A stretch of 64,000 nucleotides of DNA. Source: Lamellibrachia satsuma (taxonomy: Eukaryota; Annelida; Polychaeta; Sabellida; Siboglinidae). The position numbers and the translations under genes are program-made. The stretch is from positions 1,128,501-1,192,500 of the forward strand of contig BSQZ01000072.1 in assembly GCA_033239005.1 (NCBI GenBank), written 5' to 3'. Shown here piece after piece: positions 20,401-59,800 of this stretch (the first letter of the stretch is position 1; every line of letters starts with the position of its first letter). The notes under the pieces are model-generated. The model saw only the letters and a list, made by a program, of their open reading frames with translations. It made no database searches and had not been told where the DNA came from.

Positions 20401-23400
20401 GGATTTCTGCTTCTCTGAAACTCATAGATAAGCGAAGTGCATGTTTAATTTAGAGAATCGCTGGTGATGATGGTGCATACAAGTTTTCAGTAGAATTTTG
20501 TACGTTTTCAGTAACTCACATACTATTACTTCGAACCTCGTGACTTCAACGACCCAGAAATACTGCCTACACAAACTGGTGGCTTAGATTACAATAAAGT
20601 TTGCTTATTTTGCTGGTCGCCTAAACTTATTAGTGCATTGGATTGCTTTATCCAATGATACATCAGTGCATGCATCATACAGTTTAAATTTGGCACTACG
20701 TTATTTTGCACAGCTTTCTTGCTTGAGCCAGAATTCACTGCATCCACTGCCTTTAATTTAAATGACATGAAATATTCCTTTCTAGCAATGGCGGTATTTT
20801 AGTTTACAATGGCATGGTGATTTGATGACATTCCTGAATCATTCCATAGAGGCACCATGCGTAGGATAAAACAGTGGCGCCACATTGAATTTTGGCAGCA
20901 GTCTAACTTAAGAGGCCGATTTCACCGCCATGCAGATAATTCACTGAAACGACTGCCTTTATTTTACATGATATGGAATATGTCTTTCTACAGTAGAACG
21001 TCCAGCAATGGCAGAATTCTCATCTAACTGCCATAGACGTTACAGTGTTTAGTTGCGATGACTTGGCAATTCAATGACATGGTTCCCGAACTATTATTAT
21101 TAAACATTTATAACACGCCATGTATCTCTGTGAAACACCTGCTCAAAGGTGCTACAGTTGTACATGTATAAGTAAAGTATGTTAAAATGAGCTAAAACAG
21201 ATTAAAAGAATAAATTAAATGAGCTAACAGGTTAAATAACTAAAATAAATAAGGTGCTTAAATTAGTAAATAAATAGGTAGAGTAAGTTAGTTTAACTAA
21301 TCACAAATACATAGATCAAATGTGTAGCTAAAATGTCACTGGAATATCACTGCTGCAAAGTGCAAAGTTGCACGAAAGCCTGTCAGAACAGATGTGTCTT
21401 TAGTAATGGCAGTGGAGTCAGGGCATTCCATGGAACCGGTCCAGCCACTGAGAACGTACGGTGGCCATACTGCTCCAAGTGATATCTAGTGACTGTCAAG
21501 TAGACCTTGTTAAGACGATCGAATTGATCTGGCATCGGCACGAACGATAAGTATGTAGGGCTGAAATGGCCCTACATACATATCATTCCCTAGAGGCACT
21601 ACGCACAGGATATAACAGTGGTGCCGCACTGTGGACTTTGGCAATTTTGGCCGTTTTCACCCCTGTTCAGAAAATCGGGGGTTCATGATTCAGGCCATGT
21701 CTGAGAAACTAATAGATGCACACCCAAGGCCTTTGCACTCGTGCACTGAACGTCTATCGGGTGAGTGGAGAGGGATTGCCAGGTGGTAAGACGGTAAAGG
21801 TTGATGATAGGAGAGAAAGGGGGCATACTAGTAGTGTGCAACAGGAAAGGAGCTTTGCCGATGTAGTATCACAGGGGAAAGCGAGGAAAGCTCGGGTATT
21901 TATGGGGGATTCCATCATTAGGAAAGTGGATAAAATTGTAAATAGAGGAGATGACATAACAGTATGCCTACCAGGGGCAAAAGTAGAGGATATAGCAGAG
22001 AAGGCAGGACAGGTCATGGGTGGTGGCACGGGAGGTGCTGTTCTCGTGCATGTGGGAACGAACAATGCAGATAAGGAGGGAACGTCAGCCATCATTGGTA
22101 AGTACAGGAGGTTGATCAAGACACTCAAAGAGGCACGAGTTGGGCAGATCGTATTGTCGGGGATATTACCAATAATGGGAGGCAGGGGTGAGGAATATAG
22201 GAACTGTAGAAGGATGGCGATCAACACACAGGTACAGAAGGTATGTATGGAGGAGGGAGTAGGCTTCGTAGACATGTGGTTAAACTTTGTGGGAAAGAGG
22301 TGACTTTTTCATGAGAGATGGACTTCATCTGACAGGGAAGGGCGCTGCAGTTCTTGCGTGTGAGTTTGTTAGAGTTGTCGACGAGGGCACAGGTACCATA
22401 GATTATTTAAACTAGATGCGCAGGGGGAACTGACAGAGAAAACTCAAAGGAGTACTACTACAAATACACATCCAAAGAAATGTTCACCAATAATTTCAGA
22501 CAATGAACTTAAATGTGTATGCTTAAATGCCAGGAGCATAGTAAATAAAAAAGTGAGTTAGACATTATGGTAGCAGATATTGATCCTCATGTAATAGGCA
22601 TCACAGAATCATGGGCAAATGAAGATATAGTAGATGCTGAGTTAGCACTGACAGGCTATGTAATGTTTAGGAAGGATAGACGAGAAAGAAGGGGAGGTGG
22701 AGTAATTTTGTATATTAAAGAATCTATCCAAGCATATGAAATTACTCTGAAAAGTGAAGCAGATAGTGTGGAAGCAATTTGGTGTAACATAGTTACCAGG
22801 AACTCAACATTAACAATAGGAGTAGTTTATCGTAGTCCTAACATAGGAGAAGAGGAAGATGTAAAATTACAAAAGGCAATAGGGAGGTGAGCAAGGGAGA
22901 ATGTGTTATAATGGGTGATTTTAACCATGGCCATATACAATGGGAATCATTAGAGAGTGCTGGAGGTGACGACCATCAGTTTCTACTTCTAACACAGGAT
23001 TGTTTCCTTACTCAACATGTCTTGGAACCAACCAGAGGTGGGAATGTGTTAGATTTAATTTTGTCTTCTCAAAATGAATTAGTTGACAATGTTAAAGTAC
23101 ACGAACCTTTGGGTTCAAGTGACCATAACCAAATCCATTTTAATATAAAAGTAAAAACAGGAATACATATAAAAACAATGGAGGAGGAACTTCAACAAAG
23201 GCAGATATAAAGTGATGAGAACATATCTAGCAAATATAGATTGGAATAATTTGCTGAAGAACAAGACAGCAACAGAATGCTGGACTTGTTTAAAATATGA
23301 GATTGAGGGCATTATTGAGAAATTTATTCCATTAAGAAAACAAGGAAAAGATCCAGGAAAAAACACCTGTCAAAAGAAGCTATTAGAAAAATTGCTCACA

Positions 23401-26400
23401 AACAGATGCTGTGGAAGGTCTATAAACACACTGGAAATGTAGAAGACTACACCAACTACAAAGAGGCACTTAACCTAGCTACTACTGAAATTAGAAAATC
23501 TAAAAGAACCTTTGAACAAAAATTGGCAGGTAATATAAAAATGACAGCAAGAGTTTCTATGCTTATGTAAGGAGTAAACAGAAAGTTCGAGATAAGGTCG
23601 GACCACTGGAAAGCAACAGTGAAAACATAATTTCAGATGGGTTCCAAATGGCAGAGGTCCTGAATGAGTATTTCAGCTCAGTTTTTACCACAGAAGATAT
23701 CAGCTCACTTCCAGTTCCATTAACTAAATTTGAGGGCAATACATCAGAATATTTAGGGCAGTTATTTGTAACTCCTGAAATGATAGCAAAGAAAATTAAG
23801 AAGATGAAAGATAATAAATCACCTGGAGTTGATGGGATACCACCAAAACTGCTAAAGGAAATTGTTGATCAAATTAGTACACCACTTGCAAACTTATTTA
23901 ACTTGTCACTAGAAGAAGGAATAGTTCCTTCAGAATGGAAAGAAGCAAACATTACGCCGCTGTTTAAGAAGGGATCGAGGAAGAAGCCAGAAAATTACAG
24001 ACCAGTGAGTTTAACATCAGTTGTATGTAAATTACTTGAAACATTAATTAGAGACCACATGGTGGAATTCCTCATAAAACATAAATTAATAAATACATCT
24101 CAACATGGATTCCTAAAAGCAAGGTCATGTCTAACCAATCTCTTATGTTTTTTAGAAGAAATTACAAAGTGGGTAGATCACGGGTCACCAGTGGATGTTG
24201 TCTACTTAGATTTTCAGAAAGCTTTCGATAAAGTGCCACATCAAAGATTGTTACTTAAACTAAAAGCCCATGGTATAGGCAATGATGTAATCAACTGGAT
24301 AGAAAAGTAGCTTACACACAGAAGACAGAGAGTAATAGTAGATGGTAAGATTTCAAACTGGAAATCTGTTTTGAGTGGGGTACCACAGGGATCAGTGTTA
24401 GGCCCTATACTGTTTTTAATATATATAAATGATTTGGAGGATGACATATCTAGCAAAGTACTCAAATTTGCAGATGACACAAAGGTATTCAGAAAGGTTA
24501 CTAATGATACAGATAAACAAAGTTTACAGGATGATCTAGAAAAATTAGTTAAATGGTCAGAAAAATGGCAAATGTTATTCAATTTTGGGAAGTGTAAATG
24601 TATACACATAGGACATGGAAATATGGATGAGGAATATAAAATGGGGGATGCTGTACTAGGTAGAACCACACAAGAAAAGGATTTAGGAGTAATATTTAAT
24701 GCTGACATGAAAGTTTCAGAGCAATGTGGGATTGCTGCTTCGAAAGGAAATCAAATTCTAGGCCTAATTAGGAGAACTATCACGTATAAGGAGAAACATC
24801 TAATTGTACCCCTGTACAAAGCAATAGTTAGACCACATTTGGAATATTGTATTCAAGCATGGAGGCCATATCGTAAAAAGACATAGATAAGCTAGAAAGA
24901 ATACAACGAAGAGCAACTAAGATGATTCCAGAATTAAGAGACCTTAGTTACGAAAGTCGCTTATTACAATGTGGTTTGACAACACTAGAGACCAGGAGAC
25001 TAAGAGGAGACCAAATAGAAGTGTTTAAAATAGTGAACGGTTATGAGGATGTTGATAGGAATATGTTCTTCAAACTTAAAGAAGGCAGTAGAACCAGAGG
25101 ACACAAAGCAGCATTAGTTAAGGAGCAGTGTAGGTTGGACATGAGAAAGTACTCATTCTCACAGAGGGTGATAAATGAATGGAACAAACTGCCAAACGAT
25201 TGTGTTAATGCTAGTAGTGTGAATATGTTTAAAAATAGAATTGACAGATATCTGATAAGGGCGGGCTACACATAGATGTGAAAATTGTTGGACTCTCGAT
25301 AAGCCAATGGCTTCCTTGTCCACTTGCCATCTGGAACTTGTTCGAGATGGCAATCTTGTTAAATCTTGTTAAATCTATACGGTATGTCATTTAGAAGAAG
25401 TATAAAATGTTAAATATATTTTATGTCACCAGTTTTTGTCTTTACCGTGCCAAACATGTCTAGCACACATATGGGTTGGTCTCTCAGGAACTGCATGGTA
25501 TCCTTATGTGTTGGTACTGATAGGTTCACTGCGCATGGTCACATTGGTGCCAAGGATTTGGCTAGCATGGTTTAGCACTGTCCATGATAATTATAAAAGG
25601 TTCCACACCTCTGTGACCTTCTCTTTCTTTGTTTGTTTCTTTCTTTGTAATACTGTAGATGCCCCGAGTATCAAGGAATAAACTCTACATGGGGAATAGC
25701 GTGTGGAGCGAGCGCTTTTCCAGTGATTTAAAAGGCAGCGGTATAAAAGTTACACTAAAACTTAAAAGTTAAAAACAACAATAAAAAATAAAAAGTTAAT
25801 ACTCGATAAAAGACAATGCCATTGATCTATTTTGATGATTATATGTGGTGCCCATCCATCCCTTCAGTGAAGACCTGAATGAGGGTAGGGATGTAGCTGA
25901 TGATGCTTTACAGGTACACTGTTCCAAAGTCAGATTGATGATGGGAAGAAGGAGTGTAGGTATGTGTCAGTTTGAGAACGGAGAATTTGGAGCCTTATTG
26001 GTGTTACCTGTGATACCGTATGATCTTAATTTGAGGAGGAGTCTCTGATGTGGTACTCTGTCGAAAGCTTTAGACAGATCCAAGAGGATCATGTCCGCCT
26101 GACCTTTATCGATTTCATTTGCTAGGTCGTCAACCGTGAGGATTAATTGAGTTTTGCAGGAGCGTTTCTTGCGGAATCCGTGTTGGGCATCCGTGATGAT
26201 GTTGTTGAAGTTGAGAAGACTTGTAATTTCTGACCTCACAATGTGTTCCAATAGCTTGCAACATATACTCATCAGGGAGATGGGCCAGTAGTTTGCGGCT
26301 TCTCTCCTGTCTCCCGTTTCAAAGATGGGTTGGACCAGTGCATGTTTCCAAGATTGCAGGACTTGGCCTGCTGCGAGAGATCTGTTGAACAAGAGGGTCA

Positions 26401-29400: not shown

Positions 29401-32400
29401 TCTCAAATGTAACATATAACTTTGTCAAGTCACAAAGGTGAAGCGACGAATAGAATTCACATAACTGCCAGTGTATGGGCAATGCTTGCACTGAAAATGG
29501 AGGGATTCAACAAATCTCATCGCCTGCTGTTCTCTCTTCAGCCCTGGCAGCACACTGACAATAGTAATTGTGGTGTCTGTCCAGTGACATGGCTCTATCA
29601 GCATGTTGATCCAAATAGAGCACATTCAGCAGGTCACACCGGCTTGTCATGTGCAGTGTATGGGCTTTTGACCTTGCCAATGCAATCACCATCAACCAGT
29701 TCAGTCCGTCTGGGGAACATGCTAAATATGGCGTGTGGTTGAAAACACATATCCCACACTGGCAAAGCTTCAGATGAGATCTTGTGGCACACTCATCTAA
29801 TGCAACACTCATGCTTTACCAATTTGTTCGATCAGTCCCGCATTTGTTTTTAGAAGAACTCTCCCTGCATACGTCCAACAATCTGATTTTTTTCCTTTTT
29901 GAGGGATCTGGATTTGTATGCAACACTGCACCCTTTTCTGTTCATCATGGTGTTGACTATTGTGGTTCTGTAGTTTTGTTCGTGCGTGATAAACATCATC
30001 TTTGACCGCCTCACTGCAGAGGTGCACAGTAATCATGTGACTGTGTGGACGACCGTGATTGTCTTCTGACCAAGGCGATGACTTTTTTCTAAATCGGAGA
30101 CACCGATGTCTTCCAATCCCATCTTCTTCATAGTGGCAATCACTAACTCATTCGTGATTTCATCTTTTACTTCCGGGATGTCGGAGATGTGGAGGTTAGG
30201 ATGGGGTGTCACGCCAGGCATCCCAGGTAGTGTCCCCTCCTTTACTCCCAGGGCTGTCCCTTCAAGCCCTGAGGTGTCACACCTGGCATCCCAGTGAGTC
30301 TTGCCCTCCTTCACCTCCAGGGCTGTCCCCTCAACCCTGGGGTGTCACACCAGGCATCCCAATGGACTGTCACCCTCCTTCATCCCGGGGTGTCACACCA
30401 GGCATCCCAGAGAGTGTCTCCTCCTTCACCCCCTGGGGTTCGTCATGGCAGACCAGAAGAGCTTATGCTGGGGTGCTTCTTCTGAGTCAGTGCAAGAGGT
30501 GGTGCTTCTAAGTCAGTGCAGGTTGTGCTTCTGAGTCAGTGCAAGTGGTGCTTTTGAGTCAGTGCAGGTGGTGCTTCTTAGTCAGTGCAGGTGGTGCTTT
30601 TTCTGAGATGGTCTGAATCAGTGCAGGAGGTGGTGCGTCTTCTGTGTCGGTCTGAGTCAGTACAGGAGGTGGTGCTTCTTCTGAGTTGGTTTGAGTCAGT
30701 GCAGGAGGTGGAGCTTCTTCTGAGTTGGTCTGAGTCAGTGCAGGAGGTGGTGCTTTTTCTGAGATGGTCTGAATCAGTGCAGGAGGTGGTGCTTCTTCTG
30801 AGTTGGTCTGAGTCAGTGTAGGAGGTGGTGCTTCTTCTGAGTCGGTCTGAGTCAGTGCAGGAGGTGGTACTTTTTCTGAGATGGTCTGAATCAGTGCAGG
30901 AGGTGGTGCTTCTTCTGAGTTGGTCTGAGTCAGTGTAGGAGGTGGTGCTTCTTCTGATTCGGTCTGAGTCAGTGCAGGAGGTGGTGCTTCTTCTGATTCG
31001 GTCTGAGTCAGTGCAGGAGGTGGTGCTTCTTCTGCATCGGTCTGAGTCAGTGCAGGAGGTGGTGCGTCTTCTGTGTCGGTCTGAGTCAGTACAGGAGGTG
31101 GTGCTTCTTCTGAGTTGGTTTGAGTCAGTGCAGGAGGTGGAGCTTCTTCTGAGTTGGTCTGAGTCAGTGCAGGAGGTGGTGCTTTTTCTGAGATGGTCTG
31201 AGTCAGTGTAGGAGGTGGTGCTTCTTCTGAGTCGGTCTGAGTCAGTGTAGGAGGTGGTGCTTCTTCTGAGTTGGTCTGAGTCAGTGCAGGAGGTGGTGCT
31301 TCTTCTGAGTCGGTCTGAGTCAATGCAGGAGGTGGTGCTTCTTCTGCATCGGTCTGAGTCAGTGCAGGAGGTGGTGCTTCTTCTGAGTTGGTCTGAGTCA
31401 GTACAGGAGGTGGAGCTTCTTCTGAATTGGTCTGAGTCAGTGCAGGAGGTGGTGCTTTTTCTGAGATGGTCTGAATCAGTGCAGGAGGTGGTGTTTCTTC
31501 TGAGTTGGTCTGAGTCAGTGCAGGAGGTGGTGCTTCTTCTGAGTCGGTCTGAGTCAGTGCAGGAGGTGGTGCTTCTTCTGCATCGGTCTGAGTCAGTGCA
31601 GGAGGTGGTGCTTCTTCTGTGTCGGTCTGAGTCAGTGCAGGAGGTGGTGCTTCTTCTGAGTTGGTCTGAGTTGCAACGTCCTTGGCCCATGTTGCTCCAC
31701 TTACATGATCCAGTCTGGTGTGCATGGTGTACCGTACACCTTCGGCATCTTTGATGGGGAAGGCTGAAAAGCAGATACTAGGTATATAGTAGAGAAGTTC
31801 CAAAAGTGGATCCCAAAGCTGCAGTAATTGACTTACATGACTTACTTGACTTAAAAACATACACCATAATAATAATAATCTTTATGTTTCACAATGATCA
31901 ATACAGAATTATGATAAGCATCATATACAAATACATTCTGTTCTATTTATGACATGCTGCTCTGCTGTCAATAGTGGGAGCCCAGAATCATTCCTAATCT
32001 TATCACTCAGTGGTGTTCCTCTCTTTTGTTGTCCTTTGAAGTCTGGTTTGTATACTTGCCTAATGATGTTATCTCTTTGTAAACAGCAAACATGCCCAAA
32101 CCACCAGAGTCTTCTGTGTCTGATGACATCTGTGATAGATTCAGAGTGTTCTCTCTGATCTTGATATTTTGTAGTCTGTTGGCACTGGTAACACCTCTCA
32201 AACACCTCAAGAGATTGAATCTCCTGTGATCGTAGCGTCCAAGCCTCCATATCATAGATTGCTATTGGCAGTATAAGGACTCCATGTAATCTGGCTTTCA
32301 GTCTTGTTGAGATGCTTTTTTTGAAAATATATTTTTTTTCTGAGTCTACCAAAGGCTGCTGATGCTAAGGCTATTCATTTACTAACATCTCTGTAGACAG

Positions 32401-41400: not shown

Positions 41401-43683
41401 GTCTTTCAGATCTGTTATGGCCTTATAATCTCAGAGTGTGACACTTGTATGTCCATTTCATATTCAACATTTTTACAAAGATTATTTACATCTTTGTCTT
41501 TGTTTAAACGATTAAATAAATCCTCAGTGAGATTTCCACATATTAACTATGTTATGCGACCCAGTCACACCATCACTGACGTAAGGAAGAGACAAATTAC
41601 TATTATTCATCAGCTTAATTTCTTTCCAAAATGCTTTGTCATTTTTACACAAAAGTTGTTATGCAATCAACAACACAACACAGATATAGAGATATGAAAA
41701 GGCCAAATGAATGACGTTTATTGTGGGGATTAAGTGTAAGCCCACTTGTAAAGAAATGTGGGCTCTACAACCAGGCTGACTACTCCCAATGCGAGCCTCC
41801 TGGACGTCGGGTTCAATAGAGCCCACATTTCAACATATAAAGCAGTAGCAGTATTCCTAGAACAAATAAAAGAAACAATGGCATTACTATTGTCATAGAA
41901 CACCCTTAAACCAAATAGCATAATGCCCTACATGCTATCACGCAGTCTATGAATACAACTATACATAGTAAAATGTCAGTTGGTAACTCAACATTTCTCA
42001 GGCGTATTTCTGACTCTCTCTCTCTCCCCCCCCTCTCTCTCTCAGCCAATTAAATTTCACGGCTACAAATAAATTGCCCATTTTAATCACCAATTTAACG
42101 TCTTTCATTAATTTCTGCTGCTGTTTTCACCTGTACAGATACATGGTTAATCTGATTAATTAATTCTTGCACTGACTGCTATCTAGCAACATAGAGCTAA
42201 ATATTTTAGTATGTAAAAAACTTGATTGAAACACATGAAGACATCTGAATAACAGAACAAACTGGTATGCATCAGTCTGGCCGGCATTCAGCACATGTGG
42301 ACATAATATACACAGAAAACTCATCTATTTGAATCCTTTTATTTTTAATTAATTTTCTTTCTATGGAATATAAGTGTTATGTATAGTTTCTTATTATTCA
42401 TTATAATATGTTTCAAAAATAGTATAGTTGTACTTACCTTTATTGGTGATAGATGATGGCAGATTAAAAATCTTCTGTTTTTTACAGAAGCATGTGTTTT
42501 ATTAATAAACAGAAAAGACAAATGATTGTGGGATATATTACTAGCAACCTTTTTATATAGAGGGCAGCACTGTCACAAGTAAAAACATAATAGTGCTGCC
42601 CTCTTTATTACGTCTTTGCAACTAATTGATATATGTCTTAGTAGAAGAGAAAAATCTAACAACTGCATTGTGCCTCGCGTTACGGTATCCTTTTTGTGAT
42701 TCGCATTACGTGTGACTCGCGTTACACATATTCAGGGTCCAATATCATAGTATAGATAGACTAGACACGGATGTTGTTTGTATCATTGAAATTCAATCAA
42801 TGAAATTTAAGACCATTTTCCCTGTTTTCATGTAAATGCCCCAAAGGCTGAGGGTGCTTTAGCTCGCAATCTCTCTTACCATCATTAAATTACATGCTAC
42901 TGGCTGTTAGCAAGACATTGATGGTGGTCACAAGTTGTCTCATCATACATTGGCTTTTGGCAAATATTCCATAATGGACTGGATCTGGTTTCAGGGTGAA
43001 CCAGTAAGTGAAGACGAGGTGTTTGTGGCAGTGAAGACATGCAAAAAATTCCACAATACACGAGGCAAGAAACCAACATAGTTTCTTCGATTGCACAAAT
43101 ACTGATTATTTGTGGTTATATTAATACTTGTTGAAAATGTTATTTTAACATCTCATCTCACTGACATTAATATAGACGCAGTCTCGATTTCGTTTGAACA
43201 TTACATCTGATTTATTAACTATGTCTTATAATAAGGTGTGTTTGTAAGGTATTTGTAACAGTACTGAAATTGATATCTTCTGTGATGAATTACAACTTTT
43301 GTATGTGTGTGTGTTGCAATCAAATTCATGTTGTAGTTCAGAAAACACATTTTAGTTTTCCTAGTCCTTATTGTGTTGAGAAACCACTACAACAGTTGTA
43401 ACTGTGATAAGTAATTACAAATACAGTGTAATATGAACATTATAATTTAGTTTTTACGAGCGTATGTAATTGTATTAAACCATTGTAATTGAGCTCAACC
43501 CTGGCAACAAGAATGTATGAATTCACCTAAAACACTGTTTAAAATGATCAGTAATGATCCGTGTAATCTTCCTTTAGAAAACACTGCAGCTGCACTAAAC
43601 CTATGAACCATTGCAATTGACCCTTTATGAAGCATTGTAGTTATTGTTTTTGAAGCATTGTAATTAAGCATTTTTAAGCATTG

Positions 43684-43747
<64 letters not shown>

Positions 43748-44216
43748 CAATTAAATTATATGCACTGCAAATGTTGCAATTGATTTTTATGAAGATGTGC
43801 AATTGTAATGAACACTTGTAATTGAACCCAACCCTCCTCTGGAATATGTAGACAGTAATTAATCGTTAATTTATTAATCATTAATTATTGATCATTTTAT
43901 TTATTTGTGGTCACTAGTTGTATCTTACATCCATGAATAAGCAGTCTTATATAATAAGCAGTCTTATGTAATAAGCAGTCTTATGTAATAAGCAGTCTTA
44001 TGTATATTTTCCTACGTGTATTGCACAGTGCCTGTTGTGCAGAAGACGTGGGGTAAACAGACAAAGCACATTGAGTACTACAGTGAAGAGGCTGACGAGT
44101 CCATTCCAACCATCGACCTGGGAGTGCCCAACGCAGAGGGCGGTGAGTGCAAGAGTTAGTCCAATGGTTTGGCTGAAACTAAATAACAAATTTGTACAAA
44201 TGAGCTAGCATCCTAT

Positions 44217-45805: not shown

Positions 45806-48800
45806 ACTAAAAATTTTAAATAAAATAAAACAATTCTGAAACCATGAATTTCATCGCAGTCATTACGTCCTGTGTGTCCAGGTCACTGTGCCAAGACATA
45901 CGCCATCCTTGTATGCGCTGTCAGGCAGGCCCACATCGCAGTCATTACATGTCTTGTGTGTCCAGGGCACTGTGCCAAGACATACGCCATCCTTGTATGC
46001 GCTGTCAGGCAGACCCACATCTCAGTCATTACATGTCTTGTGTGTCCAAGTCACTGTGCCAAGACATACGCCATCCTTGTACGCGCTGTCAGGCAGGCCC
46101 ACATCTCGGTCATTACATGTCTTGTGTGTCCAAGTCACTGTGCCAAGACATACGCCATCCTTGTACGCGCTGTCAGGCAGGCCCACATCTCAGTCATTAC
46201 ATGTCTTGTGTGTCCAGGTCACTGTGCCAAGACATACGCCATCCTTGTACGCGCTGTTAAGCAGGCCCACATCGCCAACAAGAAGTGGCTCGTCATTACT
46301 GATGACGACACTCTCCTTAGGTACGCTTTTTAATATTCTTTTTTATTATCATGATTATTTTTGCTATCATGCACTGGAAAACGTCACGTGATCTCATTAA
46401 CACCTGTCTTTAATCAACTTTGTCCACAGTCCACAAATTTGTCCTTTGTCTACAAATTTGAATTGTTCACAACTGAAATTTTTGACAGCTGTTTGTGAAT
46501 GTTCTGATAGTCATAAACAGATAATGTTCAAATTATGTATAAAAATCGTGGTTCATTAAAACATGTTTTGGGCGGTTGAGATGTTACCTTAGGTGTAGTT
46601 TTTATATTAATATAATAAAAGCGATGAGTTGCTGTGTGTGTGACAGTGTCCCCCGTCTGAGGAGGTTACTGGCCTGCTACGACCCTACGGAGCCCGTCGC
46701 CCTGGGGGAACGGTATGGGTATGGGGTCAATGCCAACTATGGATACGACTACGTGACAGGTGGAGGAGGGTGAGTTACTCCTCTTACCAACTTTGGTTAT
46801 GGTTGTTGATGAACATGGTATTTTTCATTCTTCAATTGGGGGTAAAATTAACTGGGGAAATGGGTTAAAATTAATTAAATTGAGAACTAGTGGTTACAAT
46901 TAATTAAATGTGGAAATATGGTTAACATTAATTAAATGACGGAATAGCAGTTAAAATTTATTAAATTTGAAGATAATTTTGTTGCACTTTGATGCTGTTT
47001 ACCCTTTGCATTTTGTGATAATTAAGTAGGTAAGTTGTCATGTGTCAAACCAAGAATAGGTGTATACAAATATATTTTAATTTGGCGAGCGAATATTGCC
47101 AGAATACCACACTCATGACGTAGGGTTATTGTGATATTCTTAATTGTAGTTGCAAGAGGCTGTGTTTTAGTAACTCTTGCAGGTGCATAGGCCGAAAACC
47201 ATTACTTTTGTTTCCCCTTAAAGCTGTGTGAATCTAAATACGCCATTTTGCTTAGATAGAAGTGCCTGACAGGTAATAGTACAGATCTTACAAATGATGT
47301 GATTAAGGAGGTTGATTTAGAAGCCTGGTTGTGTATTGTGCAGGTTATAAATGCTGTGTCGCAGCATACAGACTTTAAGGTGAATGATCATGCATGTACG
47401 TGCACCTTCTCCAGGATGGTCTTCAGTCTGCCGACCGTACACCAACTACTGAGCTGTCCCTGCGGCGCTCCCAACTCTCCCGACGACATGCACCTTGGCA
47501 TGTGTCTCAAGCGCTTCAACATCCCTGTCACACACAGCCCCCTCTTCCACCAGGTATGAGATCCCTGTCACACACAGTCCCCTCTTCCACCAGGTACGAA
47601 ATTCCTGTCACACACAGCCCCCTCTTCCACCAGGTATGAGATCTCTGTCACACACAGCCCCCTCTTCCACCAGGTACGAGATCTCTGTCACACACAGCCC
47701 CCTCTTCCACCAGGTACGAGATCCCTGTCATACACAGCTCCCTCTTCCACCAGGTATGAGATCTCTGTCACACACAACTCCCTCTTCCACCAGGTAAGAG
47801 ATCCCTGTCACACACTGCTCCTTCTTCCACCGGGTAAGAGATCTCTGTCACACACAGCTCCCTCTTCCACCAGGTACGAGATCCCTGTCATACGCAGCTC
47901 CCTCTTCCACCAGGTATGAGATCTCTGTCACACACAGCTCCCTCTTCCACCAGGTACGAGATCCCTGTCACACACAACTCCCTCTTCCACCGGGTAAGAG
48001 ATCTCTGTCACACACAGCTCCCTCTTCCACCGGGTATGAGATCTGTCACGCACAGCTCCCTCTTCCACCAGGTATGAGATCTCTGTCACACACTGCTCCC
48101 TCTTCCACCAGGTATGAGATCTCTGTCACGCACAGCTCCCTCTTCCACCAGGTATGAGATCTCTGTCACACACAGCTCCCTCTTCCACCAGGTACGAGAT
48201 CCCTGTGACACTTAAGTATTGGTCAAATAATTTAAGAAACTATTCAATTATTTTGACCCGATCCTCTTCTTCATACTATAACATAAAGCTATTCAAAATT
48301 TCCAGTTACCCAATCTAATTATCAAAGTTGATTCTTTTGATGATTTTAACAAAAGTATGCATTCTGCATTGCATGTATTACTTGTACTATTCTATATTGC
48401 ATGCATTACTTGTACTATTCTACATTGCATTTATTACTTGTACTATTCTACATTGCATGTAGTACTTGTACTATTCTACATTGCATGTATTACTTGTACT
48501 ATTCTACATTTCATGTATTACTTGTACTATTCTATATCGCATGCATTACTTGTACTATTCTACATTGCATGCATTACTTGTACTATTCTACATTGCATGT
48601 ATTACTTGTACTATTCTACATTGCATGTATTACTTGTACTATTCTACATTGCATGTATTACTTGTACTATTCTACATTGCATGTATAACTTGTAGTATTC
48701 TACATTGCATGTATAACTTGTAGTATTCTACATTGCATGTATAACTTGTACTATTCTACTTTGCATGTATTACTTGTACTATTCGAACATGACAAATTTA

Positions 48801-49039
48801 AAAGTCCATGAACCTGATTCATGATGAGCTAAGTGAATTGAGGACGTAGTTTCAAGTGTCTGGCGTGTGTTGTACAGGCGAGACCGGCTGACTACGCCCC
48901 GGGCTACCTCAGCTCCCAGCTGCCGGTGTCCTTCCACAAGCACTGGAACTGTGACCCACTCAAGGAGTACACGCAATGGCTGGCCGCTGATGACGACCGC
49001 AGTGTCGACACAACAAAAGAACCACACCTTGAGCTTTGA
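6337..49039 (+). CDS. B3GLCT: Beta-1,3-glucosyltransferase (B3GLCT/B3GALTL), complete 13-exon gene
   Basis: Joined exons: 6337-6436, 16887-16996, 17836-17915, 18468-18576, 19186-19316, 19719-19782, 20111-20230, 42995-43064, 44029-44142, 46218-46320, 46647-46769, 47415-47553, 48878-49039. They total 1425 nt (474 aa plus stop) and every phase agrees. Known family role: this GT31 enzyme of the ER adds glucose to O-fucose on thrombospondin type 1 repeats. Visible landmarks: hydrophobic N-terminus (about residues 12-22), [36 protein letters not shown], a metal-binding-type DDD near 328-330, LGERYGYG near 353-360, [13 protein letters not shown] near 396-403, [15 protein letters not shown], and a C-terminal HLEL resembling an ER-retention tail. 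Nearly all blocks align with the vertebrate protein without gaps, from memory. The N-terminus is shorter than the 498-aa human protein. Exons 10 and 12 carry tandemly reiterated splice junctions. Intron 7 is 22.8 kb and intron 8 has a GC donor. Confidence 0.93.
7240..8165 (-). mobile_element. LINE reverse-transcriptase fragment
   Basis: Minus-strand pieces in order: [43 protein letters not shown], then a thumb/C-terminal segment [11 protein letters not shown] and [16 protein letters not shown]. Frameshifts separate them. The order and motifs are those of a CR1/Jockey-group ORF2 lacking its endonuclease. It lies in B3GLCT intron 1. Confidence 0.85.
8166..11387. other. Intron 1 sequence, no gene seen
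   Basis: Mostly unique AT-rich sequence. A tract rich in AAGTACA/GAGTACA motifs (8655-8780), starting near CAGACCTGGGGCCAAGTA, resembles one end of a hAT-type nonautonomous element, but no matching opposite end was found. Confidence 0.4.
9374..9393. repeat. 20-bp perfect palindrome
   Basis: ACCATGGTTTAAACCATGGT is self-complementary. A related CATGG-rich stretch lies at 8420-8455. Confidence 0.8.
11388..11438 (+). repeat. (TA)n microsatellite
   Basis: About 25 TA dinucleotides in B3GLCT intron 1. Confidence 0.97.
11990..13490 (-). mobile_element. hAT-like DNA transposon, internally deleted
   Basis: The ends are inverted copies of CAGACCTTCCAA, flanked by the direct repeat ATGTTCC (11983-11989 and 13491-13497). 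This fits a hAT 8-bp target duplication with one base lost. Subterminal GGAAGATCTTCC-like motifs occur near both ends. On the minus strand an ATG at 13047 starts a lysine-rich exon with a donor near 12923. A second exon after TTGTTTTCAG (12566) encodes a decayed hAT dimerisation region: [19 protein letters not shown] and [16 protein letters not shown]. Two frameshifts and most of the transposase are missing. Confidence 0.75.
13598..14590 (-). mobile_element. LINE endonuclease fragment
   Basis: Minus-strand pieces: [47 protein letters not shown] and [18 protein letters not shown], the typical endonuclease order ending in SDHH. A linker follows ([14 protein letters not shown]). Stops and frameshifts interrupt it. 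No reverse transcriptase is attached. Confidence 0.8.
14591..15617. other. Intron 1 sequence, no gene seen
   Basis: AT-rich. Degenerate telomere-like motifs (TAACCCTAA and its complement TTAGGGT) cluster at 14870-14940 and could form a small hairpin. Confidence 0.4.
15618..15830 (+). repeat. GC-rich GGCCC low-complexity island
   Basis: Runs of GGCCCAGGCC/CCCGGCC motifs in an otherwise AT-rich intron. Composition changes abruptly at both sides. Frames here are likely artefacts. Confidence 0.75.
16345..16475 (+). repeat. Short tandem repeat, ~62-bp AT-rich unit
   Basis: About two units sharing TATTGTAATAAATAT and AATTTGGTTGTACAACC-like blocks. Confidence 0.6.
16887..16996 (+). CDS. B3GLCT: B3GLCT exon 2
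   Basis: Acceptor TTTGCAG|AA and donor CAT|GTAAGT. It encodes [16 protein letters not shown] followed by [15 protein letters not shown], matching the N-terminal lumenal domain of the B3GLCT family (human counterpart region around FVIQSQSNSFHAKRAE). It enters in phase 1 and leaves in phase 0. Confidence 0.88.
17588..17765 (-). mobile_element. 5'-truncated CR1 tail, same family as 21716-25378
   Basis: The reverse complement of this stretch matches the last ~170 bp of the CR1 at 21.7-25.4 kb, including the terminal GATTTAACAA repeats and the segment GGCTTATCGAGAGTCCAAC. It ends just upstream of B3GLCT exon 3. Truncation from the 5' end is typical of target-primed reverse transcription. Confidence 0.85.
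17836..17915 (+). CDS. B3GLCT: B3GLCT exon 3
   Basis: Acceptor TTGCAG|CC and donor AG|GTCAGT. It encodes [13 protein letters not shown] then [10 protein letters not shown], matching the family motif around GAWTILPLLP. Phase 0 in, phase 2 out. A reversed CR1 tail lies just upstream at 17588-17765. Confidence 0.88.
18468..18576 (+). CDS. B3GLCT: B3GLCT exon 4
   Basis: The polypyrimidine-rich acceptor TTTTTTTGTAG|C joins the AG of exon 3 to give Ser. It encodes [19 protein letters not shown] and [16 protein letters not shown], aligning with the EEETR...KLLETL block of vertebrate B3GLCT. NVT is a possible N-glycosylation site. Donor GAG|GTAATG; phase 0 out. Confidence 0.9.
18948..19012 (+). repeat. 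Short dispersed repeat shared with 41667-41725
   Basis: Both contain CAATCAACAAC then ATGAAAAGGCCAAATGAATG and .TTTATT. The second copy lies next to a perfect inverted repeat (41753-41831). Confidence 0.65.
19186..19316 (+). CDS. B3GLCT: B3GLCT exon 5
   Basis: Acceptor TACAG|AG and donor AT|GTAAGC. It encodes [17 protein letters not shown] and [16 protein letters not shown], the most conserved N-domain block of the family (HDEEATIIHH and PDFAAGW in vertebrates). Phase 0 in, phase 2 out. Confidence 0.93.
19719..19782 (+). CDS. B3GLCT: B3GLCT exon 6
   Basis: A 64-nt exon with acceptor CATCAG|TG and donor GAG|GTGAGT. It encodes [20 protein letters not shown], matching the KSDFTIDLKHE region of the vertebrate protein. 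Its single leading T completes an Ile codon with exon 5. Confidence 0.9.
20111..20230 (+). CDS. B3GLCT: B3GLCT exon 7
   Basis: Acceptor TTTCTTTCAG|CT and donor TGT|GTGAGT. It encodes [17 protein letters not shown] and then [13 protein letters not shown], matching LYIWDKGGG...CATT...LC of vertebrates. Phase 0 on both sides. It is followed by the giant intron 7. Confidence 0.92.
21716..25378 (+). mobile_element. CR1-type LINE, near full length, decayed
   Basis: ORF1 (21716-22414) encodes an SGNH-hydrolase-type domain as known from CR1 ORF1 proteins: GDSII (Ser block), VGTNN, and DGLHLTGKG (His block). A one-base frameshift near 22302 separates the His block. ORF2 (about 22500-25275) has an AP endonuclease ([25 protein letters not shown]) and a reverse transcriptase ([42 protein letters not shown]). 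It is broken by frameshifts near 22555, 22888, 23205 and 24885 and by an in-frame TAG at 24308. The 3' end carries two copies of a TTGTTAAATC unit, as CR1 elements end in short direct repeats. It lies in B3GLCT intron 7. Confidence 0.9.
25800..26844 (-). mobile_element. LINE reverse-transcriptase fragment (minus)
   Basis: Minus strand shows [53 protein letters not shown] and [18 protein letters not shown], the first half of a CR1/Jockey-group RT. An upstream linker is visible in other frames (26505-26844). After the RT breaks at about 25970, a short C-terminal-like segment ([12 protein letters not shown]) follows, suggesting an internal deletion. Confidence 0.8.
26870..28740 (+). repeat. Diverged direct duplication inside intron 7
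   Basis: Blocks recur in the same order at about 26935/28319, 26990/28370, 27065/28445 and 27475/28558 (for example ACACTTGTCTCTCTCTG-like and TCATTCAAC.GT.GT.ATAAGTT-like). The spacing of about 1.1-1.4 kb suggests an old duplication or two copies of one element. Confidence 0.6.
30060..30190 (-). mobile_element. LINE ORF1 fragment
   Basis: Minus strand reads [20 protein letters not shown] then [16 protein letters not shown]. This pattern (variable helix, then D(I/L)..SHRLG) is characteristic of L1/I-type LINE ORF1 proteins. It is short and not attached to an ORF2. Confidence 0.6.
30200..30440 (+). repeat. Degenerate GC-rich minisatellite
   Basis: Four blocks of GGTGTCACACCAGGCATCCC with spacers rich in TCCTTCACCCC, at irregular 48-69 bp spacing. 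An ORF1-like LINE fragment (minus; [20 protein letters not shown], 30190-30060) borders it. Confidence 0.8.
30480..31675 (-). repeat. 39-bp minisatellite (13-aa unit)
   Basis: About 30 copies of a 39-bp unit; on the minus strand each reads TQT(D/N)SEEAPPPAL. Because 39 is a multiple of three, several frames stay open on both strands. Variation between units falls at a few fixed positions. Confidence 0.95.
31705..31763 (-). other. Candidate internal exon inside B3GLCT intron 7
   Basis: Minus strand: acceptor GCTTTTCAG|CC and donor CAT|GTAAGT flank 59 nt encoding [19 protein letters not shown]. The same frame continues into the 39-bp minisatellite, giving a 433-aa open frame (31860 to 30559). 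That length follows from the unit being a multiple of three. The exon-like segment itself looks genuine but I cannot identify the protein. It could be a nested gene or captured exon. Confidence 0.3.
33280..33640 (-). repeat. 76-bp minisatellite inside RTE-like LINE
   Basis: Landmark TTATCTTGAC recurs at 33331, 33407, 33483 and 33559, an exact 76-bp period. The unit is LINE coding sequence ([20 protein letters not shown] on the minus strand). 76 is not a multiple of three, so the array destroys the frame. Confidence 0.93.
34587..35731. mobile_element. TTAA-flanked insertion (piggyBac-type signature), nonautonomous
   Basis: About 1.14 kb of AT-rich sequence interrupts the RTE-like LINE. It is bounded by TTAA at both ends (34587-34590 and 35728-35731). 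Short imperfect inverted ends GGTAGCTTGGG and GGTAGCTGGGG lie just inside. Removing the insert plus one TTAA rejoins the LINE reading frame exactly (LLQ then LKICAVQKD). No transposase frame is visible inside. The terminal bases differ from classical piggyBac, so only the TTAA target is diagnostic. Confidence 0.7.
36018..36311 (+). repeat. 24-bp minisatellite
   Basis: About 12 copies of CACAAGCCTGTGAGCCATGC plus AGTG. Open frames across it reflect the period being a multiple of three. Confidence 0.95.
36312..37162 (+). repeat. 34-bp minisatellite
   Basis: About 25 copies of a unit containing CTGCTTGTATTCACTCAGTG and TCTCAAGCCTTGCC, with alternating GTGTCTC/GTGTGTC variants suggesting a higher-order 68-bp period in the right half. 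Confidence 0.95.
37204..37450 (+). repeat. 51-bp minisatellite
   Basis: Five copies of a 51-bp unit containing GGGAGGGCCACTTGGCCATG; the minus strand reads a 17-aa unit around [11 protein letters not shown]. Confidence 0.93.
37463..37549 (-). other. Candidate exon-like segment, unidentified
   Basis: Minus strand: after GCTTGTCAG the frame reads [20 protein letters not shown] then [10 protein letters not shown] and a stop. Codon-like composition and the acceptor suggest an exon or exon relic. It borders the 51-bp array at 37204-37450. No family was recognised. Confidence 0.22.
37551..39756. other. Intron 7 sequence, no gene seen
   Basis: Unassigned. Frames at 37987-38361 are open but show no splice signals or recognisable family. 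Confidence 0.4.
39757..41280 (-). mobile_element. LINE reverse-transcriptase relic with internal minisatellite
   Basis: Minus strand order: [104 protein letters not shown], then a 28-bp array, then [17 protein letters not shown] and a C-terminal domain. All core RT motifs are present but stops and shifts occur. It lies in B3GLCT intron 7. Confidence 0.85.
40140..40465 (-). repeat. 28-bp minisatellite derived from LINE coding sequence
   Basis: About 12 copies of TTATACTGCCTAGCCATATC plus ATCATCTG, one copy 25 bp. The minus strand reads DDMARQY, identical in origin to the flanking LINE segment [10 protein letters not shown]. Confidence 0.93.
41753..41831. repeat. Perfect 15-bp inverted repeat
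   Basis: GAAATGTGGGCTCTA (41753-41767) and TAGAGCCCACATTTC (41817-41831) enclose 49 bp. It may be a small fold-back element or hairpin RNA-coding DNA. Confidence 0.7.
42559..42604. repeat. 13-bp inverted repeat with 20-bp loop
   Basis: AGAGGGCAGCACT (42559-42571) pairs with AGTGCTGCCCTCT (42592-42604). It lies 390 bp before exon 8. Confidence 0.7.
42995..43064 (+). CDS. B3GLCT: B3GLCT exon 8 with GC splice donor
   Basis: Acceptor GGTTTCAG|GG. It encodes [20 protein letters not shown] then NTR, the start of the GT31 catalytic domain. Reading on reaches a stop (TAG at 43080) and no GT donor fits. Using CGAG|GCAAGA leaves one G, which with TG of exon 9 gives Val and the continuous segment [15 protein letters not shown]. 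This aligns gap-free with the vertebrate protein, so a GC-AG intron is strongly indicated. Confidence 0.9.
43689..43744 (+). repeat. (TA)n microsatellite
   Basis: About 27 TA dinucleotides in B3GLCT intron 8. Confidence 0.97.
43936..44003 (+). repeat. 17-bp tandem repeat before exon 9 acceptor
   Basis: GCAGTCTTAT recurs at 43941, 43958, 43975 and 43992 (17-bp period). It ends 25 bp before the exon 9 splice acceptor, in the branch-point region. Confidence 0.9.
44029..44142 (+). CDS. B3GLCT: B3GLCT exon 9
   Basis: Acceptor TTGCACAG|TG and donor GGCG|GTGAGT. It encodes [20 protein letters not shown] and [14 protein letters not shown], matching the family block ending SIPTVDLGIPN. A 17-bp tandem repeat (43936-44003) lies just upstream of its acceptor. 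Phase 1 on both sides. Confidence 0.93.
44219..44789 (-). mobile_element. 5'-truncated RTE-like LINE 3' end with (GCAA)n tail and target duplication
   Basis: The minus strand encodes a LINE C-terminal domain ([46 protein letters not shown], ending HEED plus stop). A 260-bp AAGC-type tetranucleotide tail follows directly. The insertion is flanked by AGCATCCTATTT at 44207-44218 and 44790-44801. Two more copies of that 12-mer occur inside the tail (44330, 44389). It lies in B3GLCT intron 9. Confidence 0.85.
44870..44943 (+). repeat. (CTGT)n microsatellite
   Basis: CTGT tetranucleotide run with two CTCT interruptions. Confidence 0.96.
45478..45712 (+). repeat. Dispersed repeat D2, copy 1
   Basis: Matches 53190-53400 along ~200 bp (shared blocks: CTACATCAAACGAAAT-like, TATAAGTTTGTTATTC-like, GATGAACACAAGAAA, TACTTT..TCA.GATTT). 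Function unknown; likely a nonautonomous mobile element. Confidence 0.7.
45755..45805 (+). repeat. (AT)n(GT)n microsatellite
   Basis: TA run followed by about 10 GT units, 75 bp before the exon 10 junction array. Confidence 0.95.
45853..46241 (+). repeat. B3GLCT: 84-bp array: exon 10 3' splice site and exon start, five copies
   Basis: Exon-start positions recur at 45882, 45966, 46050, 46134 and 46218, exactly 84 bp apart. Each unit holds ~24 nt of intron end (CATTACATGTCTTGTGTGTC) and the first 60 nt of exon 10. Copies 1, 2 and 5 keep CAG|G acceptors. Copies 3 and 4 read CCAAGTCAC, which moves the AG by one base. The duplication edges share CATCGC in intron and exon. Confidence 0.95.
46218..46320 (+). 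CDS. B3GLCT: B3GLCT exon 10 (DDD motif; last of five junction copies)
   Basis: Acceptor GTGTCCAG|GT, donor CTTAG|GTACGC. It encodes [17 protein letters not shown] and [14 protein letters not shown], including the presumed metal-binding DDD. I chose the fifth acceptor copy because it is the only one giving a family-length product. Acceptors at 45882 and 45966 would also splice in frame and add 112 or 84 residues, since the whole 45872-46333 frame is open. Confidence 0.88.
46647..46769 (+). CDS. B3GLCT: B3GLCT exon 11
   Basis: Acceptor GTGTGACAG|TG and donor GAGG|GTGAGT. It encodes [20 protein letters not shown] then ERYGYG and YDYVTGGGG, the classical GT31 acceptor/donor-site segment ([13 protein letters not shown]). 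Phase 2 on both sides. Confidence 0.95.
47415..47553 (+). CDS. B3GLCT: B3GLCT exon 12 (donor copied about 17 times)
   Basis: Acceptor TTCTCCAG|GA and donor CACCAG|GTATGAG. It encodes [33 protein letters not shown] and VTHSPLFHQ. Its last 33 nt plus 7 nt of intron form the unit of a 40-bp array that fills the next 650 bp. Reading past the first donor hits TGA at once, so use of a downstream donor copy would truncate the protein. Confidence 0.93.
47521..48205 (+). repeat. B3GLCT: 40-bp array: exon 12 end and 5' splice site, about 17 copies
   Basis: Each unit is the last 33 nt of exon 12 (ATCCCTGTCACACACAGC ... CACCAG) plus intron GTATGAG or variants (GTACGAG, GTAAGAG). Every copy keeps a plausible GT donor. 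One unit is 2 bp short. The final unit runs into intron at ATCCCTGTGACAC. Confidence 0.95.
48230..48870 (+). repeat. Dispersed repeat family D1, copy 1
   Basis: Shares blocks with 50830-51135, 54790-55270 and (reversed) 62165-62590: an ATCAAAGTTGATTCTTTTGATGA-like block, then GATTTTAACAAAA, then a terminal block GATGAGCTAAGTGAATTGAG. In this copy the middle is a 28-bp minisatellite. Confidence 0.6.
48350..48785 (+). repeat. 28-bp minisatellite
   Basis: About 15 copies of ATTGCATGTATTACTTGTAC plus TATTCTAC. It sits inside a dispersed repeat (48230-48870) present elsewhere in the window. Confidence 0.95.
48878..49039 (+). CDS. B3GLCT: B3GLCT exon 13 (C-terminus, ER-retention-like tail)
   Basis: Acceptor TTGTACAG|GC. 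It encodes [36 protein letters not shown], and ends PHLEL followed by TGA. The human protein ends REEL; HLEL occupies the same place and fits the loose KDEL-type retention consensus. No clear polyadenylation signal was identified just downstream. Confidence 0.93.
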   Translation, partial: ARPADYAPGYLSSQLPVSFHKHWNCDPLKEYTQWLAADDDRSVDTTKEPHLEL

Positions 49040-56800: not shown

Positions 56801-59800
56801 TATGCCAGTGTTATGACATATCTAGTGATTGTTTTAGGGCATTAAAAGACGGACCAATAAATCTTCGCTTTTAAAGGTGAAATACGTTTTTCATCGGGTG
56901 ATTTGTTGGAATGTGGAATTCCCATTTCATAGAATTCTTGACGGTCAACAGACTAGAGCAGCAAAGAGTCAAACACTAGGTGTAACATTGTTAATTTAGA
57001 TGTATGTCAAGATGGAAACATTTAGAAAAGTAGGGCATTTTATGAAACCCCAACTTACTATATATTAGTTAACCAATGAAAATCATTGTACATTCCATTT
57101 AAATACTGAGATGTCATACCTGACTAGATGAGTGAGCATCAAGTTGACTGTGGCCAGGTTCTGATGGGGCAGTGACAGCAGCAACGACACCATACACTTC
57201 TCCTTCGCTTCAGGGTCCGACAGACCTACGCACACACAACCTTGGTTAGCCTCCATGCCCCACAGGCTACACACAGGAGTAATGACACCATATGTTTGTT
57301 TCAGGGTCTAACAGACCTACAGTGACAGAAGTAACAACAACATACACTTCTCCTTCACTGCAGGATCTGACAGACCTATGCACACACAACCTAGGTTAGC
57401 CTACACGCCCAACATGAATGCTGTGTGGTCCCAGTGATAGAGCACACACAACTTCTTGTAACACTTCATGTGCAGTGCAGACAGCCACATTCTTGGCTTA
57501 CAGCTTTATTAGAAGGAAGACTGAAGATCTAGTAAACAAAATGTCAAAGAAGACCTGAGTTCTTCATTCTCTTTCTAACATGTCAATGTTTAATAAAAAT
57601 TGTTTCTATGTGTGCTTCTTCCTTGGCAGAGCAGCTGTCCCTCTCCACTTTGGGGGCGGGCGCTGACACAAGGAACCAAGGAAGGCGCTGACTTCTGTCT
57701 TGAACTTGTCTCTCTCCCTGATTTTAACACTTTCCTCTGTGAGTTCATTTCAGAGGTGAGAGGCAGTTGCTAAGAATGTCCTCTTATGGCCAGCAGTGTT
57801 TGAGGATGGAATTGCCACAGCAGCTGTGTGGTGAGATGTTGATGGTGGCTCTGTACTACTGGAGGACAGGGTAACATGCTATTGAGTTGGGGCATCTCCA
57901 TGTTATATCTGGTGGAACAATGTGAGTGCACTAACTTGTCTTCTCTGTGCTAGTGGTTGTATGGCATTCCTGCTAATTCATACTGTAATATGTTGCAAAT
58001 GCCCTCCACCAGGTCTAGACACTTACTGGTGCCCTCCACCAGGCCTAGTAACTTACTGGTGCCCTCCACCAGGCCTAGTAACTTACTGGTGCCCTCCAAG
58101 AGGTGTGGATAGAGGTGGTCAGTAAAGAGAGCCTCTGGCAGCTCTCTGTAGTACAGCTTCAGTAGACACGTCACAACGTGGATGTCTGTGTCAGGCAGCA
58201 GCTGGACGGCTCCTCGGCTGTCTGTAATACAGGTCTACCTTGATCTTCACTGATATATACTATGCATTCAGATGGTAAAATATGCTCTATGCACCCATAC
58301 ACATAGGTATGTCATCTGTCATCATGATAAACATATCAGATGATTTCCCGCTAAATTTCATATAGAACCTATGCAGCTATTGGTCACCAATGATTACATG
58401 CCTGCCAATGAGGATTTCGCATAAATCTACTCAGTACTTTTCTTCAAATGTTGGCAACTCTGGGTTCGTATGTAATAGTGTTTAGGTGAATGTATATGTT
58501 CAACCACAGAACTTTTTTATTATATTCATACCTAGTATAGTATCCCCCATTCTACAGTAGTGTTCCTTTAACCTGTGCATATACATTTATATTTTCCAAA
58601 ACTAAGTAACAACTGCTATTTTCAGATGATAATAATTACTTAGGTATGATACATACTTCTCTCATATGCCTTCTTGAGTGACTGTATCTGCCCAGAGAGT
58701 CCAGAGACACGATACAGTCCAACTTCACTGAGTCCTGCACAGACAATGACAGTCAGAACAAGTTTGATATCAAATGGTACATTTGTGAATTTTATGCCGG
58801 TTGAGATTGTATCCCCCTGTAATCAGTCGAGACCGTATCCCCCTGTAATCAGTCGAGACTGTATCCCCCTGTAATCAGTCGAGACTGTATCCCCCTGTAA
58901 TCAGTCGATACTGTATCCCCCTGTAATCAGTCGAGACTGTATCCCCCTGTAATCAGTCGAGACTATATCCCCCTGTAATCAGTCGAGACTGTATCCCCCT
59001 GTAATCAGTCGAGACTATATCCCCCTGTAATCAGTCGAGAAGGTGGCAGAGTAGCACTAATAATCGAACAAGGCTGTAGGCCACATCCGTCCGATTATTT
59101 GTGCTTCTCTGCCAGCCATGCATCAACGACGGTTACAGGGGGATGCAAATCACAAATGTAGCATTTGATATTTATTCCACACGCCTAATTATTTTAACAA
59201 ATTCAAAGTTGGGGACCGTGTTCTCTATCAGTGCAATTGGGTGTCATTCAGTTTTAAAACAATTCAAACGTTCATCTGCCATTTAGTATGTGATAACCGC
59301 ATCAAAACGTAAACAATTGTTCTGTCATCATCACACATGCCATTTTCTATGCGACGACAGCGTCATAACGCAAACAAACAGATATGCCGTAATCACACAA
59401 ATACAGAGTAAACTGAATGCGTGTGTAAGATGAGACATATTAGAATAATAAATTCAACCATTTGGCCAATAGGAGGAAGCCATTCTTATAAACGGTACTT
59501 TCTGAGACAGCTAGGTAAGACAAATGAAACAGTATCAGAAATATTACTGTTCAAAGGTTTAGTAAATTATATTATAGTGAAAAATGTCAAAGTAACATAT
59601 ACAGACGACTCACCTCGTTTCTCTACCTCCTCGATACAGCTCGTCACAATGATTGGAACTTGTACACCTTCTCGTCTGCAGACAGGATACATAATTTATT
59701 TTTTAAATTTATTTATTTCCCTTTGCGATCATAAGATTGAATAGAAATAAAATGGGCAAAATATATGAGTTTGTTACATTTACATGCACACATTTTATGT

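Follow-up and report, generated by a model that had tools for sequence, protein, structure and literature searches.

The window, by which we mean the whole stretch of 64,000 nucleotides from Lamellibrachia satsuma analysed here, carries a gene for the Fringe-like glycosyltransferase B3GLCT, of which we traced 12 exons from 16.9 to 49.0 kb. When the four exons from 46218 onwards (Table 1) are joined, they encode the C-terminal half of the protein: the product matches the beta-1,3-glucosyltransferase of PDB 12em (E 4e-65) and the Pfam family Fringe (3.8e-37), and the homology extends over the catalytic domain with its DDD motif. This confirms the gene identity proposed in a preliminary description of the locus, in which the exon at 46218 was called exon 10; that numbering cannot be confirmed, since 12 exons of the gene were located in the window. 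Two of the exon boundaries of B3GLCT are covered by tandem arrays, one at a 3' splice site and one at a 5' splice site, and a third array lies over a 5' splice site in a RhoGAP gene on the minus strand. The preliminary description of the acceptor array mentions neither of the other two, nor the amphioxus precedent discussed below.

Table 1. Positions in the window of the B3GLCT exons, the three splice-site arrays and their parts.
Feature	Position	Strand	Basis
B3GLCT exon upstream of the acceptor array (...PNAEG, donor G|GTGAGT)	44029..44142	+	
84-bp tandem array over the B3GLCT 3' splice site	45852..46275	+	TRF and unit alignment
CATCGC microhomology, left copy, intron side, 6 bp	45852..45857	+	
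Decoy acceptor AG 1 (exon start 45882, in frame)	45880..45881	+	
Decoy acceptor AG 2 (exon start 45966, in frame)	45964..45965	+	
Copy 3, AG shifted (CCAAG, frame altered)	46049..46050	+	
Copy 4, AG shifted (CCAAG, frame altered)	46133..46134	+	
B3GLCT exon with the exon-proximal acceptor (encodes ...ITDDDTLL)	46218..46320	+	
CATCGC microhomology, right copy, exon side, 6 bp	46270..46275	+	
B3GLCT exon after the array exon	46647..46769	+	
B3GLCT exon, its 3' end giving rise to the donor array	47415..47553	+	
40-bp array over the B3GLCT 5' splice site (17 copies of exon end + GTAYGAG/GTAAGAG)	47521..48211	+	TRF
Last B3GLCT exon	48878..49039	+	
30-bp array over the RhoGAP 5' splice site (ACCA|GTAAGT, 3 copies, in frame; last exon base 58087)	58000..58098	-	TRF

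The acceptor array has a period of 84, 5.1 copies and 95% matches in Tandem Repeats Finder, and unit alignment places its exon starts at 45882, 45966, 46050, 46134 and 46218, i.e., exactly 84 apart, in agreement with the five tandem 3' splice sites first described. Each unit joins 56 nt of exon, rather than the 60 nt given earlier, to about 28 nt from the end of the intron (...GTCATTACATGTCTTGTGTGTCCAG). The exact repetition reported for the intron end holds for the spacing but not for copy 1, whose intronic part is 2 nt short. The AG is in register in three of the five copies and displaced by one base in the other two, copies 3 and 4, as had been noticed; AG|GT occurs at only two copies, with weak donor scores. 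Positions 45848 to 46333 form an open read-through frame without a stop. The earlier claim that acceptors 1 and 2 lie in frame is thus upheld: their use would add 112 and 84 residues, respectively, to B3GLCT. The insert would not fall just before the DDD motif, as had been stated, but 27 residues to its N-terminal side.

The donor array is built differently. Its units end in CAG or CGG, the adjoining bases are GTAYGAG, GTAYGAA or GTAAGAG, and the GT is present in all 17 copies. Each of the 16 downstream donors leads to HQV and a stop, so the first donor (47553) is needed for the full protein, and 3 of these 16 decoys (47793, 47833 and 47993) outscore it. In 14 of the 17 copies, the authentic one included, the boundary is a CAG|GT dual site, an AG|GT core in a context suited to donor as well as acceptor use, and these 14 take ranks 1 to 14 among the 411 AG|GT sites of the window (both strands) by joint acceptor and donor score. 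This ranking could be taken to favour a regulatory role for the arrays, e.g., sequestering splice factors or pacing the removal of the intron, a reading that we regard as highly improbable. The 14 dual sites have a common origin in the exon end CCCCCTCTTCCACCAG|GTATGAG, and because the copies share this one ancestor the ranking counts as a single event and not as fourteen. Among 11 B3GLCT exon ends, one other (17915) also scored high as an acceptor, in a scoring where 44143 was used for 44142 and the positions of two minus-strand ends were likewise wrong.

The donor array is also a run of AG|GT sites that may be able to serve as donor or as acceptor, and in this it resembles the dual-specific sites of polyubiquitin. 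In the excerpted text of the study of UBC and VCX3A (PMC10809524), the dual-specific arrays likewise consist of tandem units delimited by AG|GT and capable of donor and acceptor function; our array differs in lying beyond the exon's own donor and in having a period that is not a multiple of three, and its dual use is putative. The same excerpts argue that excess repeats can be spliced out, and dual-specific sites are there reported as enriched in human introns with tandem repeats (PMC10809524). The 40-bp units run from GT to AG, and in principle a second round of splicing could restore the normal mRNA from a mis-spliced product.

The third array lies over the end of an exon identified by its Pfam RhoGAP match (6.7e-09, minus strand), where donors 2 and 3, if used, would add 10 and 20 residues in frame. 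Another array (26 bp, 9 copies, 58803-59040) stands directly upstream of the RhoGAP exon near 58735, also on the minus strand.

All three arrays are bounded by short direct repeats: CATCGC at the acceptor array (6 bp), ATCCCTGT at the donor array (8 bp) and TGGAGGGCA at the RhoGAP array (9 bp). Random pairs drawn at the same distances within this repeat-rich window equalled these lengths in 2.2%, 1.7% and 1.0% of draws, respectively. The edge repeats fit a microhomology-mediated duplication at each array, and the interpretation of CATCGC made in the preliminary description thus holds. We think it probable that the acceptor array is a splice-site minisatellite which arose in this manner, that the exon-proximal site is spliced and that the extra copies are neutral intron. 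A tandem duplication between two CATCGC, of which the first stands at the intron end and the second within the exon, would have copied the 3' splice site together with 56 nt of exon, and slippage or unequal exchange would later have altered the number of copies. Splicing would take the acceptor nearest the body of the exon (46218), and in the companion arrays the first donor, at 47553 in B3GLCT and at 58087 in the minus-strand RhoGAP exon. All further copies would then be intronic and drift neutrally, with a normal mRNA. In each of the three arrays, exon definition, i.e., pairing of the closest sites across the exon, would pick the proximal site; the exon is shortest with the proximal pair, and the presumed preference therefore fits this model.

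Such arrays are known from amphioxus, where they were called mirages. Both B3GLCT arrays are minisatellite-like repeats that span an exon boundary, and they carry AG (acceptor) or GT (donor) splice signals in their units. In the available portions of the amphioxus papers (PMC3087553, PMC3902484), the mirages of Adh3, BflGb6, BflGb9, TnC and PGBD5 are likewise repeats over splice sites, with decoy AG or GT and variable copy number. The closest likeness is to BflGb6, in which an intron end is joined to an exon start and two haplotypes have 6 and 3 units (PMC3087553). In the parts of the globin paper at hand, RT-PCR results and the Adh3 data suggest that mirages do not interfere with splicing (PMC3087553). 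The present case differs in occurring in an annelid, in affecting an acceptor as well as a donor within the same gene, in its unequal expansion in a tandem paralog, and in being known from sequence alone. The gain of an intron in a potato RdRp gene, to judge from the excerpts of its description (PMC4974935), also involved duplication of the 3' end of an intron with the adjoining exon start; a new intron arose there within the duplicated region, whereas none is evident in the B3GLCT array. The open-licence literature that we found on repeats across splice sites, as represented by its accessible text, consists only of the amphioxus globin and PGBD5 papers, and we found in it no annelid case. An earthworm metallothionein paper, in its accessible part, describes intronic minisatellites and duplications of the fourth exon. 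As far as this literature goes, mirages are new to the annelid phylum, though of a kind already known from amphioxus. This extension from cephalochordates to an annelid suggests that they may accompany minisatellite-rich genomes generally.

Strength alone does not determine which acceptor is used. Scored with splice-site matrices, acceptors 1 and 2 reach 3.3 and 4.3, close to the authentic acceptor 5 (4.3), while the shifted sites reach -2.1. This similarity would suit partial use of acceptors 1 and 2, giving in-frame length isoforms with 28-residue repeats before the DDD motif (at most four extra here, eight in the paralog described below). We consider such isoforms unlikely. The top two of 91 protein matches are both from L. 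satsuma: P0001 (91% over 100% of the query) and P0002 (99% over 70%), two annotated proteins that disagree at the arrays. In view of these matches an amphioxus origin of the DNA was discarded. In an alignment of 19 proteins hand-picked from the matches, 18 have a single copy, including Ridgeia and the L. satsuma paralog (rows P0001 and P0028), which identifies the last copy as coding. P0002 is the only one of the 19 with three copies, in frame, and counts in favour of isoforms. It starts at acceptor 1, differs from the window product outside the array by one residue (last residue aside), and has the C-terminus FHQV, as from read-through of the first donor into TGA. Because it ends exactly at the read-through stop of the donor array, the model seems to have been misled by both arrays, which suggests that splice-site arrays can mislead gene prediction. 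AlphaFold models the last copy of P0002 with confidence (values of ~92-96) and gives the two extra copies ~40-53; the lack of a confident fold for the latter also speaks against isoforms, but it weighs little, given an alignment without homologs of the extra copies. A further protein, P0092 of Ridgeia piscesae (annotated B3GLCT), has two long repeat stretches (YQDKQVSDTATPVL and HRHLSITDTSPSQTPL) that resemble translated minisatellites.

Misassembly of tandem repeats is frequent, and the copy number differs between the window and P0002, as it would if the repeat had been collapsed or expanded in assembly. The individual copies of the acceptor array, however, bear differing variants in the unit alignment, three copies also occur in another L. 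satsuma record, and the paralog carries its own array. The differing copies and the separate protein indicate more than chance or a simple slip of assembly, and an artefact is very improbable.

A partial tandem duplicate of B3GLCT, of the P0001 type, lies ~70 kb upstream (L004/L005, C72:1098501-1118500), with matches to the last six exons within the 20 kb examined. It has both arrays: nine acceptor copies, and 22.6 donor units by Tandem Repeats Finder, i.e., ~22 copies. All nine acceptors keep the AG and the frame is open throughout, which again could be read in favour of isoforms, since the frame is open in both paralogs. Splicing at the last acceptor and the first donor nevertheless gives P0001, known here as a protein record, at 218 of 219 residues. 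The donor array of the paralog has decayed, with 22 gap events in a wraparound alignment and 12 sites that still fit GGTANGA, and this argues further against regulation. Length is unstable between the paralogs, as in the amphioxus mirages: 5 versus 9 acceptor copies, 17 versus ~22 donor copies, with 3 acceptor copies in P0002. The peculiar first unit, 2 nt short, is common to both gene copies, from which the acceptor array is probably older than the gene duplication, with its copy number changed afterwards; exchange between the paralogs is the alternative. In the coding copy of the paralog, a TGG codon is shared with intronic copies 4-8 and an ACT codon with copies 6-8, which points to exchange of coding with intronic units. 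With 3 to ~22 near-identical splice sites, and with numbers that differ between paralogs, these natural arrays make it possible to test directly which of several near-equal sites the spliceosome takes, and also how introns are created from dual sites.

We found no coding constraint on the read-through units. The 12 units of the two genes hold 14 distinct variants (10 nonsynonymous, 4 synonymous and no stop), against a neutral expectation of ~70/27/3%; there is no departure, with little power at n=14. Chance would leave the frame open more often than not (P = 0.57 for a 30-nt stretch, and P = 0.65 for no stop among the 14 variants), which speaks against isoforms. We also considered the lack of indels in the read-through units as evidence for selection on the frame and rejected it, because 4 of 8 other arrays tested in the window are indel-free as well. 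Of the three options first offered (choice of the last site, isoforms with reiterated segments, or a polymorphic allele), choice of the last site is the best supported, by the single-copy homologs, the P0001 product and the neutral-looking variation of the units.

Placement gives no support for special targeting of exon boundaries. In the window, with 27 merged arrays covering 17.6% of the sequence, 3 arrays cross the 30 splice sites versus a mean of 2.7 by random placement, or 3 versus a mean of 5.3 when counted as sites under circular shift, with a few of the 30 positions 1-2 bases off (17916 for 17915; 58085 for 58087). Splice sites are thus struck at or below the chance number, a further point against regulation. 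We also sampled the genome (735,336,914 bases in 279 contigs). A splice-site array was found at 1 of 30 Ras-family loci, the best 30 of 142 matches, searched to 40 bp from the match (L025, donor, 27 bp), and at 2 of 25 proteasome loci, all the matches, searched to 60 bp (L038, acceptor, 45 bp; L045, acceptor, 63 bp). Three candidates were dropped: in L040 and L060 the acceptor lies ~40 and ~34 nt from the array, respectively, and in L023 the array is within the protein match. Sampling by the myosin head gave no loci.

The period is divisible by three in 5 of 6 independent mirages versus 29 of 74 among the remaining arrays (P 0.047 by Fisher's test, post hoc; 30 of 75 if the intronic 30-bp array at 21185, left out of the control, is counted), which would fit in-frame isoforms. 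Decoy use would nevertheless give a stop in three of the six (the 40-bp array, L038 with 45 bp and L025 with 27 bp), so we treat the excess as a lead only. A broader conjecture, that splice-site minisatellites are common genome-wide, that decoys are used at a low level, that selection keeps in-frame units and that intronic turnover feeds coding exons, seems to us unlikely.

Several smaller features were recorded around the gene. The exon end at 43064 has a GC donor (CACGAG|GCAAGA; 43064-43070), the next intron looks GC-AG, and the same is found in the paralog, after which comes a second partial match to the last B3GLCT exon. A 17-bp array of 4 copies (43936-44004) ends ~25 nt short of the acceptor at 44029 and contains several AG. 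Pieces of a reverse-transcriptase retroelement lie at 22549-25275 in the large B3GLCT intron (Pfam RVT_1, 1.4e-14 for 23534-24310), with a near copy (96-97%) in the intron region of the upstream paralog. On the minus strand, a 39-bp minisatellite at 30559-31881 forms a repetitive open frame of 440 residues and is probably intronic.
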